Assembly (NCBI GenBank): GCA_021202635.1
Contig: JAJQCQ010000074.1
Span: 1 to 64,000 of the forward strand
DNA: 64,000 bases
Direction: 5' to 3'
DNA from: Lachnospiraceae bacterium
GTDB lineage: Bacteria; Bacillota; Clostridia; Lachnospirales; Lachnospiraceae
Shown in pieces: positions 7,373-13,341 of this stretch (its first letter is position 1; each line of letters starts with the position of its first letter). The notes under the pieces were generated by a model. That model was not told the origin of the DNA. It was given only the letters and a program-made list of their open reading frames with translations, and searched no databases. Position numbers and translations under genes: made by a program.

Positions 7373-10300
7373 TTATGCCATCTTCTCCAGCGCCGTCACC
7401 AGCTCCTGCGCCAGCGGCAGGGTCTCCTCGGCTTCTTTTCCGTTGATACGGGCACGGGTATAGAGGAAGCAGGGCTTACCTTCCACAACAAATTTCAGTC
7501 GGCCGCGATACTTCTTCAGAAGCTGATCGATCCGGGTGGTATCGATCTGGGCATGCTCATACATTTGAAAACGAAGCTCGTTTCCTTTCTGGGAAAGCTC
7601 CTCAATCCAGGCGTTATGAGCCTGGGCACGCAGGCGGGCGATCGCAAGAAGATTTTGTACCGAGCGCGGCGGCTCGCCAAAGCGATCGAGGAGTTCTTCC
7701 AGCATGTCATCATGCTCCTCCTCTGTGCGGATGGCAGCGATGCGCTTGTAGATATCGAGCTTCTGTGCCTCACTGCGGATGTAACGGTCAGGAATAAAAG
7801 CATCGATATCAAGGTCAATTGTGGTCTCAAAGCTTTCCTGCGGCGGCTGTATGCCCTGTGCTTCTTTTACGGATTCGTTGAGAAGCTTGCAGTACAGGTC
7901 GTAGCCGACCGCCTCCATATGTCCATGCTGCTCGCTGCCGAGCAGGTTTCCGGCACCGCGGATTTCAAGGTCGCGCATGGCAATACGGAAACCGCTGCCA
8001 AGCTCCGTAAATTCGCGGATTGCAGAAAGCCGTTTCTCTGCCACTTCCTTTAGCATCTTATTGCGGCGATACATCAGGAATGCGTAAGAGGTGCGGCTGG
8101 AACGTCCTACACGGCCGCGCAGCTGATAAAGCTGAGACAGTCCCATCGTATCCGCATCATGAATGATCATGGTATTCACATTGGAAATATCCAGTCCGGT
8201 CTCAATAATCGTCGTGGTTACAAGGACATCAATGTCTCCATTGATAAAATCAAACATGATCTTTTCCAGCTCATGCTCTTTCATCTGTCCATGAGCAAAC
8301 GCGACCTGTGCCTGCGGGACAAGAGCCGCGATTTTATTGGTGATATCAACAATCGTATTGACACGATTATATACATAATACACCTGCCCGCCCCGGGCAA
8401 GCTCACGGCTGATGGCTTCACGCACCATCTCTTCGTTGTATTCCATGACGTACGTCTGAATGGGCAGACGCTCCTGGGGCGCCTCTTCGAGAATGCTCAT
8501 ATCGCGGATACCAATCAGGCTCATATGCAGCGTACGCGGAATCGGGGTTGCGGTCAGGGTCATTACATCGATGTCGGTCTTTAACTGCTTGATTTTTTCC
8601 TTGTGCGTCACACCAAACCGTTGTTCTTCGTCGATGATAAGCAGGCCAAGATCCTTATACTGAACATCCTTAGAGAGCAGGCGGTGGGTGCCGATCACAA
8701 TATCGACAAGCCCGCTTTTTAAATCGGTCAGCGTCTTTTTCTGCTCCGCCGGCGTCCGAAAGCGGCACATCAGGTCCACACGCACCGGGAAGTCTTTCAT
8801 ACGCTGTAAAAACGTGTTGTAATGCTGCTGCGCGAGAATCGTTGTCGGCACCAGATAAGCGACCTGTTTTCCGTCCTGTACGGCCTTAAAGGCGGCCCGA
8901 ATCGCAATCTCGGTCTTTCCGAAACCCACATCGCCGCAAATCAGGCGGTCCATGATTTTCGTACTCTGCATATCGTGCTTGACATCTTCAATCGCCGCGA
9001 GCTGATCCTCTGTCTCCTCATATGGAAACATTTCCTCAAATTCCTGCTGCCAGACGGTGTCCTCGCTGTAGGTAAAGCCATCTTTTCGCTGCCGTTCGGC
9101 ATATAGCTTCACCAGGTCCTGCGCAATCTCACGGGCAGCAGTGCGTACCTTCGATTTGGTGCGGTTCCACTCCTGCGTACCCAGCTTGTTCAGCTTCGGC
9201 GGCCGCGCGTCACTGTCAGCGTATTTCTGAATCACGTCCAGCTGTGTCGCCGGAACGTAAAGGTTGCTGCCTCCGGCGTACTCAATCTTCATATAATCCT
9301 TTGTGACATGGTCGACCTCGACCTTCTCGATTCCTTTATAAACACCAAGGCCGTGATTTTCATGCACGGCAAAATCGCCGACCGACAGCTCAGAAAAGCT
9401 GCTGATCTGCTGACCCTCGTAACGTTTCTGCCTTTTTCGTTTCTTCTTCTCCTGGCCAAAAATATCACTCTCTGTAATTACCGCAAAACGAATCAGAGGA
9501 TATTCGTAGCCCCGTTTCGCATTGCCATAGGTAATCAGAATCTCTCCGGAGTGCACCTCACGCGTTTCGTCTTCTGTGTAAAAAGCCGACAGTCCCTCCT
9601 CTGTCAGATCCCGTGCCAGGCGGTTCCCCCTCGTGCGGGACGCCGCCAGCAGGATCACGCGGTAGCCTTCCCGCTTCCAGCCCCTGAGGTCCTTTACCAG
9701 ATACTCAAAGCTGTTATTATATGGATTGACCGAGCGGACAGTCAGGCTGTATTTGCCGGAAACAGCCCATGGCGCCTTTGCGTTCTCCAGCGTACAAAGA
9801 CCCACCGCATTCCGTCGGCAGATCGCGGCAGCGGTCGCCTGCGTGGAAAACAGCAGCTCCGTCTGCCCGGGCAGTACATAGCCTTTCTCCAGACGGTTCG
9901 TCATGCTCTCGGAAAACTCCAGTTCTACCGCATCGCCCGCTTCCAGCATCCGGTTGGGTTCATCAAGAAACAAAATGGTCCGTTCCGGGTCGAAATAATC
10001 CAGGAAACTGATCTTTTCCCCTACAAAGTAGTCGATAAAGCCTTCCATAGAAAGAGGCTCCCCCGTCTCCTCCAGCTCGTCGCGGCAGTCCTGAAGAAGC
10101 TGGCGGATTCTGCCGGCCGCTTCCCCGGCATCAGCCAGATGCGCAGCATTTTTCTCATCGCCGGCACGTCCTGCCATTCTCTGCTTCTGAAATTTCTCCT
10201 CGGCTGCTTTTGCTTCTTTTTTGATCCGTGCAAGCGCCCGTTTTCGTGCCGCCTGGTCCGGAATCAGCTCCGCAGCCGGAAAAATCCGCACCCGGTCCAG

Positions 10301-11086
10301 ATTTTCAATGGACCGCTGACTCTCCACGTCAAAGCTGCGAATCGAGTCCACTTCTTCTCCCCAAAGCTCGATGCGAACCGGATTTTCCTCCGTCAGGGGA
10401 AAAATATCAATAATCCCGCCCCGGACCGCAAACTGCCCCGGTCCTTCGACCTGTCCAGTGCGCTCATAGCCAAGCCGGATCAGCTCTTTTTTCAGTTTTT
10501 CCGTATCAATCTCCGCATCGCCGTCAATCGTAAGAATGTGTTCCTGCCATTCCTGAAACGGAACCATGCGGTTCATGCAGGCAGCGATCGTCGTAATAAT
10601 TGTCAGCGGCTTTTCCTGCACCGGATCAGCTCCTCCTGCCGGTCTGTTCTTTGCCGCCTCCCTTTGGCTCGTCGAAACATCCGTTTGCTTTGTATCCGCA
10701 CCAGAAGCTCCAGCCAGACTGCCGTCCGTCAGCGCCTTCAGCACCTGGATCCGCTGCTGTTCCAGAAGATTGCTGTGAATATCCGCCTGAAAAAAAATCA
10801 GATCCTTCGCCGGAAAGTACAGGACATCCCTGTCAAAAAAACGATAATTCTCATACATCTCCTTCGCCCGGAGATCATTGTAGGTAATAATAAGTGTAAC
10901 CGGATGTGCTGTGCTTTCCGGCACATGCTTCTTCTCATGAAATTCCTCCGCCAGGCAATGTACAAAATGGGATTTCTGGGAGTCAATACACCCCGTTACC
11001 TGAAGCAGGCCGCGGTTTCCCACGGCCTTTTGACTGATTTCCTCAAATTCCCCAAGCTGCCGCATGGGAGCCAGAAATGCTTTCAT
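7373..11086 (-). CDS. mfd: Transcription-repair coupling factor
   Basis: Mfd removes RNA polymerase stalled at DNA lesions and recruits UvrA. Seen in order: the N-terminal UvrB-like module, including [12 protein letters not shown] and [15 protein letters not shown]; the RNA-polymerase-interacting domain ([14 protein letters not shown], near residue 575); Walker [10 protein letters not shown] near 719; DEEQ box near 819; [13 protein letters not shown]; and the C-terminal regulatory domain with [11 protein letters not shown]. At 1237 residues it is some 60 longer than usual because of two insertions: a linker near residues 123-160, and a segment near 302-322 that matches the family D in-frame repeat. 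AGAGGAAGA precedes the ATG. It is the last gene of murF-pth-mfd, 21 bases after pth, an arrangement close to the common pth-mfd order of Firmicutes. Confidence 0.97.
10118..10180 (-). repeat. Family D in-frame coding repeat, copy in mfd
   Basis: The plus strand reads agatgcgcagcatttttctc, closely matching aaatgcgaagcatttttctc inside murF at 12031. It encodes the peptide [20 protein letters not shown] in the region after the UvrB-like module, where related Mfd proteins carry a variable helical linker. Confidence 0.7.
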
Positions 11087-11107
11087 CTCTATCTTCCTCT
11101 AATCTCA

Positions 11108-11683
11108 TCATTTCGCCAGATGCGTATTGTACGCATTCATCACCGCCTGCACATCCTCGCTCAGCAGCATAGCCGCGGCATCCCCTGCGCGGGAAAAGGC
11201 CTCCGACATGGTCTCCCATTCTTCCTCCGGAAAATGCCCCAGCACATAATCGACAAGGTCATACTCCTGCGGTTTCTCACCGACGCCGATCCTGACCCGC
11301 GCAAATACCTGTGTGCCAAGCTGCTGAATGATATTTTTGATTCCATTGTGTCCGCCCGCACTACCTTTCGCCCGCACGCGAAGCTGTCCCGGCGGCAGGC
11401 TGATGTCATCATATAAAACAATGAATGCTTCCTCCGGGTTGAGCTTGTAAAAGTCACAGGCGGCACGGATACTCTCACCGCTCGCATTCATGTAAGTCAG
11501 CGGCTTCAGAAGAAGAACCTTCTGGCCATTGATCACGCCAGTTCCGGTAAGCGCCCGGAATTTCTCTGTCTCAATCCGGATCCCATATTTGTCCGCCAGG
11601 CGGTCAATTGCTTCGTAACCGGCATTGTGCCGTGTGTGTGCGTATTTTCGTCCGGGATTACCGAGTCCCGCTATAATATACAT
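11108..11683 (-). CDS. pth: Peptidyl-tRNA hydrolase
   Basis: Essential enzyme that frees tRNA from peptidyl-tRNA released by stalled ribosomes. The 191-residue protein begins MYIIAGLGNPGRKYAHTRHN, with the GLGNPG motif and catalytic His in TRHNAG. It also has KPLTYMNASGESI, the YDDISLPPGQLRVRAKGSAGGHNGIKNI core with catalytic Asp in YDD, and FARVRIGVGEKP. The ATG at 11683 has GATGAGGAAA upstream, which rules out the longer frame from 11734. It starts 10 bases after murF and ends 21 before mfd, so the three are probably cotranscribed. Confidence 0.96.
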   Translation of the reverse strand: MYIIAGLGNPGRKYAHTRHNAGYEAIDRLADKYGIRIETEKFRALTGTGVINGQKVLLLKPLTYMNASGESIRAACDFYKLNPEEAFIVLYDDISLPPGQLRVRAKGSAGGHNGIKNIIQQLGTQVFARVRIGVGEKPQEYDLVDYVLGHFPEEEWETMSEAFSRAGDAAAMLLSEDVQAVMNAYNTHLAK

Positions 11684-11693
11684 GATCGTTTCC

Positions 11694-13304
11694 TCATCCT
11701 TTTTCATTCTCCAGACTCGCGACAACCTTTTCAAACTGCATGAAATGTGACGCTTTTACAAGGATCGTGTCGCCTTTTTCCACCAGTGACGGAAGCGTTT
11801 CAAGCAGCGCCGGCAGATCCGGCAGAACCATCGTCCTTTTCTCCGGATTCACCGCATGGATTCCTTCCGCGATTTGTGCACTTAACTTCCCCACACAGAT
11901 ACACAGGTCGATCTCCAGCCGCCCTGCAAATTCACCGACCTCGCGGTGCATCTGTTCCTCCTCACCGCCAAGCTCACCCATATCGCCCAGAATCGCTACC
12001 CTTCGATTCCACCCGTCCACAGCGCCGACCAAATGCGAAGCATTTTTCTCATCGTCGGCGCGTCTTGCCGCCGAGCGCATGCGAGGGGACGCCTCCTCCA
12101 GAACCTCCAGCGATGCTTTCATCGACATCGGATTTGCATTGTAACAGTCATCGATGATCGTAAAATTCTCCGTGTGGATAATATGGAATCGTCCGCTCAC
12201 CGGCTGCAGGCTCTCAATCCCCGTCCGGATCTCATCCATTGACAGACCATACTGCAGACCGACCGCTGTGGCCGCAAGTGCATTCCGCACCATGTGAATG
12301 CCCGGAATCGGAATCAATACTTTAAAGCTGTCACCTGAAGCAGCATGGATTCGGCACTCGATTCCAACCAGCCCTTTTTTCTCGATCTGATCCGCATAGA
12401 TATCATTTCCAGTCCCCAGCCCAAAGAAAACCGGTCGAAGTACCGCCTTTTTTCCATCATCCACGCAGTCTGCAGCCTCGACCGGCTGCGCCGCATTTTC
12501 CTCATGATCGGCGCGTCCTGCTGCCGATGCGTCCGGCCAGTGACAGGCATTCAGCTCCGGCCGGTGCGAAAACGGAGACTGCATGCGCGGAGATATATCC
12601 GCAACTTTTACCTCCCGCACCGTCACCAGCTTATCATCGTCCCCGTTTAGTATAATATGCCCATCCGGGCGTAAAAAATCAAAAATTTCCGTCTTCGCGC
12701 GCAGTACACCGTCACGGTCTCCCAGAAATTCCAGGTGGCACTGACCAATATTCGTGATCACACAGGTATCCGGCTGTGCGATCCGCGCCAGCCGGTGCAT
12801 CTCCCCAAAGTGGTTGATGCCCATCTCAAGCACCGCAATCTCATCCTCATCGCGCAGACGGAAGATGGTCAGCGGAAGTCCCAGCTCGTTGTTAAAATTC
12901 CCAGCTGTTTTCAGGGTGCGATACTTCTGCGAAAGAACCGCCGCGATCATCTCCTTCGTGCTGGTCTTGCCGACACTGCCCGTAACACCGACCACCGGGA
13001 TCGCCAGCTGCTCCAGATAGTACGCCGCAAGCGCGCCAAGCGCACGGATCGTAGAATCTACTTTTATGTAATTTCCCGCGCTTTCGCGAGGGGGCGTTTC
13101 CACAAGCACGCAGAGCGCACCTTTTTCAAAAACAGACTCGATAAAATCATGTCCATCCACCCGCTCGCCTTTAATCGCCGCGAACAGGCAGCCTGGCTCC
13201 GCTTTTCGGCTGTCTGTCGTCACGGAACAGATTTCTCTGTCCCGATCCTCGTCTCTTCCATAATAAATACCACCGCAGGCCTCCGCCATGCGGGTCAAGG
13301 TCAT
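11694..13304 (-). CDS. murF: UDP-N-acetylmuramoyl-tripeptide--D-alanyl-D-alanine ligase
   Basis: Cytoplasmic Mur ligase adding D-Ala-D-Ala to the peptidoglycan precursor. Motifs: ATP loop GVTGSVGKTSTKE near residues 105-118, AGNFNNELGLPLT, EMGINHFGEM, NAHAATAVG-type segment NALAATAVGLQYG, DDCYNANPMSMKASLE and LGDMGELG. At about 536 residues it is some 80 longer than ordinary MurF. The extra length is two insertions: residues 237-281 in the central domain and 406-431 in a loop of the C-terminal domain. Both begin SPRM and carry a GRAD-type peptide (family D). Three ATGs are possible (13325, 13313, 13304); 13304 has the best spaced GGAAGG. It heads murF-pth-mfd and follows a family B repeat. 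Confidence 0.95.
   Translation of the reverse strand: MTLTRMAEACGGIYYGRDEDRDREICSVTTDSRKAEPGCLFAAIKGERVDGHDFIESVFEKGALCVLVETPPRESAGNYIKVDSTIRALGALAAYYLEQLAIPVVGVTGSVGKTSTKEMIAAVLSQKYRTLKTAGNFNNELGLPLTIFRLRDEDEIAVLEMGINHFGEMHRLARIAQPDTCVITNIGQCHLEFLGDRDGVLRAKTEIFDFLRPDGHIILNGDDDKLVTVREVKVADISPRMQSPFSHRPELNACHWPDASAAGRADHEENAAQPVEAADCVDDGKKAVLRPVFFGLGTGNDIYADQIEKKGLVGIECRIHAASGDSFKVLIPIPGIHMVRNALAATAVGLQYGLSMDEIRTGIESLQPVSGRFHIIHTENFTIIDDCYNANPMSMKASLEVLEEASPRMRSAARRADDEKNASHLVGAVDGWNRRVAILGDMGELGGEEEQMHREVGEFAGRLEIDLCICVGKLSAQIAEGIHAVNPEKRTMVLPDLPALLETLPSLVEKGDTILVKASHFMQFEKVVASLENEKG
12010..12087 (-). repeat. Family D in-frame coding repeat, C-terminal copy in murF
   Basis: It encodes SPRMRSAARRADDEKNASH followed by LVGAVDGW. 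The plus strand contains a perfect hairpin AAATGC-GAA-GCATTT (12031-12045), then tttctcatcgtcggcgcgtc. The insertion falls between a helix (SLEVLEEA) and a strand (RRVAILGDMGELG) of the MurF C-terminal domain, where ordinary MurF proteins have a short loop. Confidence 0.75.
12462..12594 (-). repeat. Family D in-frame coding repeat, central copy in murF
   Basis: It encodes SPRMQS, a spacer, then AAGRADHEENAAQPVEAAD. The plus strand carries gccgcattttcctcatgatc and ggcgcgtcctgctgccgatg, matching the other two copies. It interrupts the central domain before VFFGLGTGNDIYA. Confidence 0.65.
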
Positions 13305-13341
13305 ATTTTTCATTCCTTCCCCCATACTTCCCTTACTCAGT

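Follow-up and report, generated by a model that had tools for sequence, protein, structure and literature searches.

Copies of the RF02987 (GA-cis) repeat family lie in frame within the murF and mfd genes of a Lachnospiraceae genome

We analyzed a 64,000-nt stretch of DNA from a Lachnospiraceae bacterium (assembly GCA_021202635.1, contig JAJQCQ010000074.1, positions 1 to 64,000; hereafter, the window), in which the genes murF and mfd contain related segments inserted in frame. These segments are copies of one repeat family within the Rfam family RF02987, named "GA-cis RNA". The explanation that we favor, with a probability of roughly 0.84, is that they represent a non-autonomous mobile palindromic element of the RF02987 family, which has multiplied in a single clade of uncultured gut bacteria within one Lachnospiraceae genus and has many of its copies in genes. 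We designate the genome to which the window belongs G000; other G numbers denote congeneric genomes, and L numbers denote loci. The host genes and the sites are listed below, with E-values of the copies from R1, a covariance model trained on 18 in-gene G000 copies, including the copy at 12018..12100.

11697..13325, minus strand: host gene murF, 543 amino acids; Mur_ligase_M 3e-43, Mur_ligase_C 1.2e-18
12018..12100, minus strand: MurF site 2, best-preserved copy; peptide ASPRMRSAARRADDEKNASHLVGAVD; net insert 78 nt; R1 E-value 7e-19
12471..12557, minus strand: MurF site 1, decayed copy; peptide SAAGRADHEENAAQPVEA; R1 E-value 0.0055
13041..13105, minus strand: MurF site 0, truncated copy or footprint; VETPPRESAG; R1 E-value 0.099, a weak match
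7373..11086, minus strand: host gene mfd, 1237 amino acids; UvrB_inter, CarD_TRCF_RID, DEAD, Helicase_C, and TRCF domains in order
10124..10201, minus strand: Mfd copy, decayed; R1 E-value 8.5e-4; 72% DNA identity to MurF site 2

A repeat search of the window revealed a single family of 3 copies (10121–10180, 12015–12074, and 12468–12527) with 72% to 77% identity over 60 nt. The core motif occurred 3 times against 0.35 expected, a count reached in 0 of 100 shuffles, and the 3 copies share one reading frame on the minus strand. The first-pass annotation of this DNA, which had noticed 2 related segments in MurF and 1 in Mfd sharing one frame, is borne out by the repeat search, the motif statistics, and the R1 matches. 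Its boundaries had to be redrawn: the SPRM motif, which was placed outside the element, is the 5′ part of the element (consensus TPPR), and the element extends further than first drawn, with a net insertion of 78 nt. The predicted peptides of the MurF copies are SAAGRADHEENAAQPVEA and SAARRADDEKNASHLVGA. The site 2 copy contains a perfect hairpin (AAATGC-TTC-GCATTT) and matches RF02987 at 38.3 bits (cut-off 34.7) across model positions 1–88, the full model, on the plus strand, that is to say, on the strand opposite to murF. The site 1 copy is 77% identical to site 2 at the DNA level over 60 nt, but its first stem region is extended, with SPRM and 18 residues preceding the peptide; in the congener alignment, its only homologue is a decayed one in G410. 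At site 0, the clear element sequence is confined to 13076–13105, of which 28 nt match the consensus with 96% identity. The copies in Mfd and at MurF site 1 are old ones that have decayed.

The unit comprises approximately 72 nt, arranged as ACGCCCCCTCGC..GCTCGGCGGCAGG..arm..AAACGCTKCGCGTTT..arm′ and ending in GCT, plus a junction of approximately 6 nt. It has 2 hairpins, a repeat period of 78 nt, and a net insertion of 78 nt, and each copy adds about 26 amino acids with the consensus (V)ETPPRxxSAAGRA..ENAARLxGA. On inspection of the consensus for terminal inverted repeats, the ends (ACGCC../..GGCGCT) have only a short CGCC inverted match. In G000, 25 copies exceed the RF02987 cut-off; matches above it were found at 17 of the 19 loci around other G000 copies (19 matches in total), all of which are antisense to the peptide. 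Comparison with GA-cis revealed that (i) the two-hairpin architecture is the same and the GCCCCCTC..GGCGGC core is conserved in both; (ii) the Rfam class is that of a small RNA (sRNA) gene, whereas the repeat studied here occupies protein genes in frame, with a 78-nt period, and runs opposite to the Rfam strand; and (iii) in the other genera sampled, the copies are intergenic and the units are approximately 85–90 nt or more. Although the repeat belongs to the family by score and structure, its classification in Rfam as an RNA gene leaves the in-gene copies unexplained. GA-cis was reportedly first described as a cis-regulatory RNA upstream of genes, a placement that is not part of the Rfam model; it holds for many copies in other genera but not for the in-gene copies of this genus. 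In the open literature that we searched, GA-cis appeared only in a table of the Rfam 15 paper (PMC11701678); subscription papers lay outside this search, and an earlier description is possible. The proposal that the repeat is undescribed holds in part: the sequence and structure family is already in Rfam, and the part that appears undescribed is its behavior as a repeat that inserts in many copies, including in frame within coding genes.

Searches with the 78-nt unit and then with a refined 95-nt consensus revealed many further copies in G000, with E-values down to 1e-36; a lack of further copies, which the first-pass annotation had named as counting against its proposal, was thus not observed. 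R1 copies number 41 in G000, 13–88 in 16 congeners, and 0–8 in the remainder of the 47 congeners. In a MurF tree of 25 congeners, 7 copy-rich genomes cluster and 2 changes are needed, and the copy-rich state may have a single origin on this tree. Outside the genus, all matches over the cut-off among 391 genomes of the class were in Lachnospiraceae, and an exact 26-base pattern was found, in a collection of approximately 85,000 species, only in metagenome-assembled genomes (MAGs) labelled Lachnospiraceae or Clostridiales bacterium. Neither the exact pattern in IMG/VR nor blastn of phage, plasmid, and viral collections yielded a copy in phages, plasmids, or viral contigs.

Alignment of orthologues revealed clean empty sites in MurF and Mfd of relatives, as predicted for an insertion, and the difference between filled and empty orthologous sites is usually exactly 78 nt. 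MurF of congeners without inserts is approximately 455–475 amino acids long compared with 543 in G000. MurF site 2 is filled in G000 and in G443, the latter with more than one copy; a CCCCCTCGC remnant is left in G410, the place is taken in G408 by a longer insert unrelated to the element, and the remaining aligned congeners do not have the element, with a net length difference of 78 nt in most congeners. At the Mfd site, 12 of the 13 aligned congeners have no clear copy (11 without an insert and G397 with an unrelated one), and G410 has the remnant RNASHLADA. In G416, Mfd is empty at the G000 site and has an independent full copy elsewhere, flanked by VEAPPR repeats. Differences of 78 nt were also found in the gene pairs L312/L412, L331/L307, L337/L327, and L322/L042, and tandem copies are spaced by 78 nt. 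At MurF site 0, G416 and G447 have full copies with differing arms, and G000 and G443 have the VETPPR footprint alone, the pattern expected of deletion between direct repeats.

Two further observations concern inserts in the same proteins. At 10613–10723 of the window (minus strand, Mfd residues ~122–158), a further insert is located where G416 has its independent GA-cis copy; it has no recognisable similarity to the element. Unrelated in-frame low-complexity inserts share some of the MurF loops (L139, L155, L157, and L158, in G408, G397, G411, and G418), which indicates that these loops tolerate insertions generally.

The in-gene copies of this genus are biased in strand and frame. In G000, 17 of the 30 examined copies lie within an open reading frame (ORF) of at least 250 amino acids on the peptide strand (18 by a looser measure, stop to stop with frame choice), and all but one or two in-gene copies use the same frame. 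Among the congeners, 52 copies lie in ORFs of 300 amino acids or more, and 39 of these use the common frame; none of 92 copies from 17 genomes of other Lachnospiraceae spans an ORF of at least 250 amino acids. The host proteins in G000 include ABC transporters, a pyridine nucleotide-disulphide oxidoreductase, a CoA-activase-like protein, UDP-galactopyranose mutase, helicases, and an AAA protein. The core length is divisible by 3 for 47 of 48 in-gene copies versus 20 of 28 other copies (Fisher p 0.001). Stop codons as the cause of the frame bias are ruled out, because the consensus is open in all six frames. The net charge of the translation is −1 in the used frame versus +3 to +10 in the other five, and charge may be the reason for the bias. 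In a separate case (L309:701–1873 in G416), several tandem copies occupy the N-terminal region of an ORF for MutL, ahead of MutL_C, in the opposite strand orientation.

In other Lachnospiraceae, the family is intergenic and often closely precedes ribosome-binding sites: of 64 isolated copies in other genera, 39 are within approximately 26 nt upstream of such a site, 38 of them with a start codon (background 12% and 7%, respectively). On the Rfam strand, the intergenic copies (L164–L243, for example L239 and L186) start with AGGAGG..ATG, which looks like a ribosome-binding site and a start codon, and they adjoin, just upstream, the real gene's own ribosome-binding site and start. Some intergenic copies of the same loci have near-identical sequence at both ends.

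What is conserved among the in-gene copies is the pairing of the arms. Across the 18 copies, 96.9% of cells pair and 14 of 20 pairs vary in both partners; cells with double changes number 57, compared with 13.6 ± 2.9 in shuffled controls and at most 13 in slid controls. The shuffled controls do not take out the relatedness of the copies, but the slid controls, which preserve it, fall far short; part of the gap to the slid controls is to be expected, since these same sequences served to derive the structure. Diversity by codon position is 0.307, 0.313, and 0.234, without an excess at the third position, and there is no sign of purifying selection on the peptide itself. The strong covariation together with the absence of a third-position excess argues that the nucleic-acid structure is conserved and that the peptide is probably a passenger. 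Folding of the window copies as single sequences was not decisive (z −1.6 to 0 versus shuffled sequences), and the structural case therefore rests on covariation; the fold was weakly better than shuffled for site 2 and no better for Mfd and MurF site 1. An AlphaFold2 model of MurF from a 30-sequence alignment has a mean predicted local distance difference test (pLDDT) score of 86, with 384 of 543 residues at or above 90 and values below 50 at residues 248–289, 416–419, and 428–437. The model suggests that the MurF inserts are disordered loops of an intact fold, in support of the initial placement of the insertions in loops.

These observations bear on the alternatives to a mobile element. Ordinary loop divergence with chance similarity would fit the location of the sites in variable MurF and Mfd loops, where congeners have unrelated low-complexity insertions, but the motif excess over shuffles, the genome-wide DNA copies, and the Rfam match exclude chance, and we reject this explanation, which is hardly credible given the copy number and the statistics. 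A selected peptide module, in which the protein needs the 26-amino-acid segment as a functional linker or as an interaction motif, would account for the single frame and the recognisable peptide of nearly all in-gene G000 copies; it is very improbable, since third codon positions are not enriched in diversity, the host proteins are unrelated, congeners do without the segment, and the modelled inserts are disordered. The RF02987 match, the strong covariation, and the proximity to ribosome-binding sites in other genera would all be explained if the family were a structured regulatory RNA (a cis-regulatory leader or an antisense RNA) and the in-gene copies were functional RNA structures. In this clade, by contrast, the copies occur at scattered internal positions of unrelated genes, opposite to the Rfam strand, they form tandem arrays and footprints, their sites are species-specific, and the decayed Mfd and MurF copies fold no better than shuffled sequences. 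We thus consider a regulatory RNA unlikely, although it is the least unlikely of these alternatives.

The mobility of the element is inferred from the scattered, lineage-specific, and precise insertions and from the bursts in copy number. The element would have multiplied to tens of copies per genome in one clade, many of them within genes, presumably moved by a transposase acting in trans. Copies in genes would persist because the unit preserves the reading frame and because the used frame encodes a stop-free, near-neutral, and probably disordered peptide that hosts may tolerate in surface loops. Later, copies could expand in tandem, shrink to the VETPPR footprint, or decay, and arm replacement and array change are probably helped by homologous exchange among copies that have the TPPR-coding end in common. 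An extension of this scheme, for which we see even odds, is that a mobile palindrome family, which in most of the Lachnospiraceae that contain it is intergenic and adjacent to ribosome-binding sites, evolved a gene-compatible form in one clade (with a frame-keeping length, open in six frames, and with a benign peptide in the preferred frame) and colonized essential genes, at tens of copies per genome, without the known REP transposase.

Several points weigh against the mobile-element explanation. No mobilising enzyme was found when Y1 transposases (PF01797) were compared with copy number, and there was no association (Fisher p 0.36). There is no clear target-site duplication, the empty sites sharing at most a few bases; after tandem arrays were set aside, neither such a duplication nor copying of the arms from the target was supported, and what remains is a weak 6-nt target-site tendency (2.82 matching positions versus 2.58 shuffled, z 3.1, p 0.0025, the best of nine shifts). 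A few in-gene copies differ in frame or strand, and genuine genes are among their hosts (those of an integrase, an ABC permease, RecD2, MutL, an AAA protein, and, at C38 in G000, an esterase). In addition, the genomes are drafts, mostly MAGs where named, and the insert peptides are known here as translations predicted from DNA. A narrower version of the mobile-element explanation, in which a repetitive extragenic palindrome (REP) or bacterial interspersed mosaic element (BIME) is moved by a Y1 transposase (RAYT/TnpA_REP), is consistent with small palindromic multi-copy repeats and with the lack of an obvious target-site duplication, as is the case for Y1 chemistry. However, the copy-rich G443, G445, G448, G441, and G408 (90%–100% complete) have no PF01797 match, and G403 has 8 matches and no copies, which makes this version improbable, a little more so than a regulatory RNA.

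The closest known parallel to the mobile element proposed here is provided by the palindromic elements of Rickettsia and Wolbachia, which lie in frame in conserved genes and are translated as tolerated, solvent-exposed segments (PMC2229807, PMC10969869, PMC3767692). Like the Rickettsia palindromic elements (RPEs), the present element is a palindromic repeat in frame within conserved protein genes. RPEs, however, are 105–146 bp long, alphaproteobacterial, and bounded by terminal inverted repeats, whereas this element is 72–78 nt long, occurs in Lachnospiraceae, has 2 separate hairpins, forms tandem arrays and footprints, and belongs to a family with intergenic copies in sister genera. The Rickettsia precedent that was invoked at the outset thus describes the way of working but not membership, and we do not classify the element as an RPE because host, size, and architecture differ. 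The ERIC/RU-1, YPAL/RU-2, RU-3, and Correia 107-bp miniature inverted-repeat transposable elements are likewise mobile repeats of small size; their frames are open, and in some cases they form in-frame fusions with genes (PMC2229807, PMC2759123). These are mainly intergenic and 103–168 bp long, and target-site duplications are listed for ERIC, YPAL, and Correia; by contrast, frame-keeping copies in genes are common here and a duplication is at best weak. REP/BIME sequences with RAYT have in common with this element short palindromic multi-copy repeats and covarying hairpins, but REPs are extragenic, and no association with Y1 transposases was found here.

Our search of the searchable papers turned up no protein-coding palindromic element described in Bacillota. 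A phenomenon documented chiefly in Rickettsia and Wolbachia would thereby be extended to gut Lachnospiraceae, at a higher copy number, and an Rfam "sRNA" family would be recast as a mobile element. Because copies vary in hairpin arms and decay, and congeners with and without copies exist, the tolerance of selfish DNA in essential proteins becomes directly testable.

Two variants of the architecture were also observed. Units of approximately 119 nt (L290:5970–6088, L315:243–364, L344:582–700, and L352:979–1097) have an additional hairpin block, GGATATCCCGCCCGAAGGGCGAGGATGCCACCCGGCGAGGGC, within the first stem, perhaps a nested second element. At L022 and L026 (G000 C104:68204 and 68305), 2 AAAATGC-TYC-GCATTTTTC hairpins are located approximately 100 nt apart; they resemble the inner hairpin only and possibly belong to a different repeat family.

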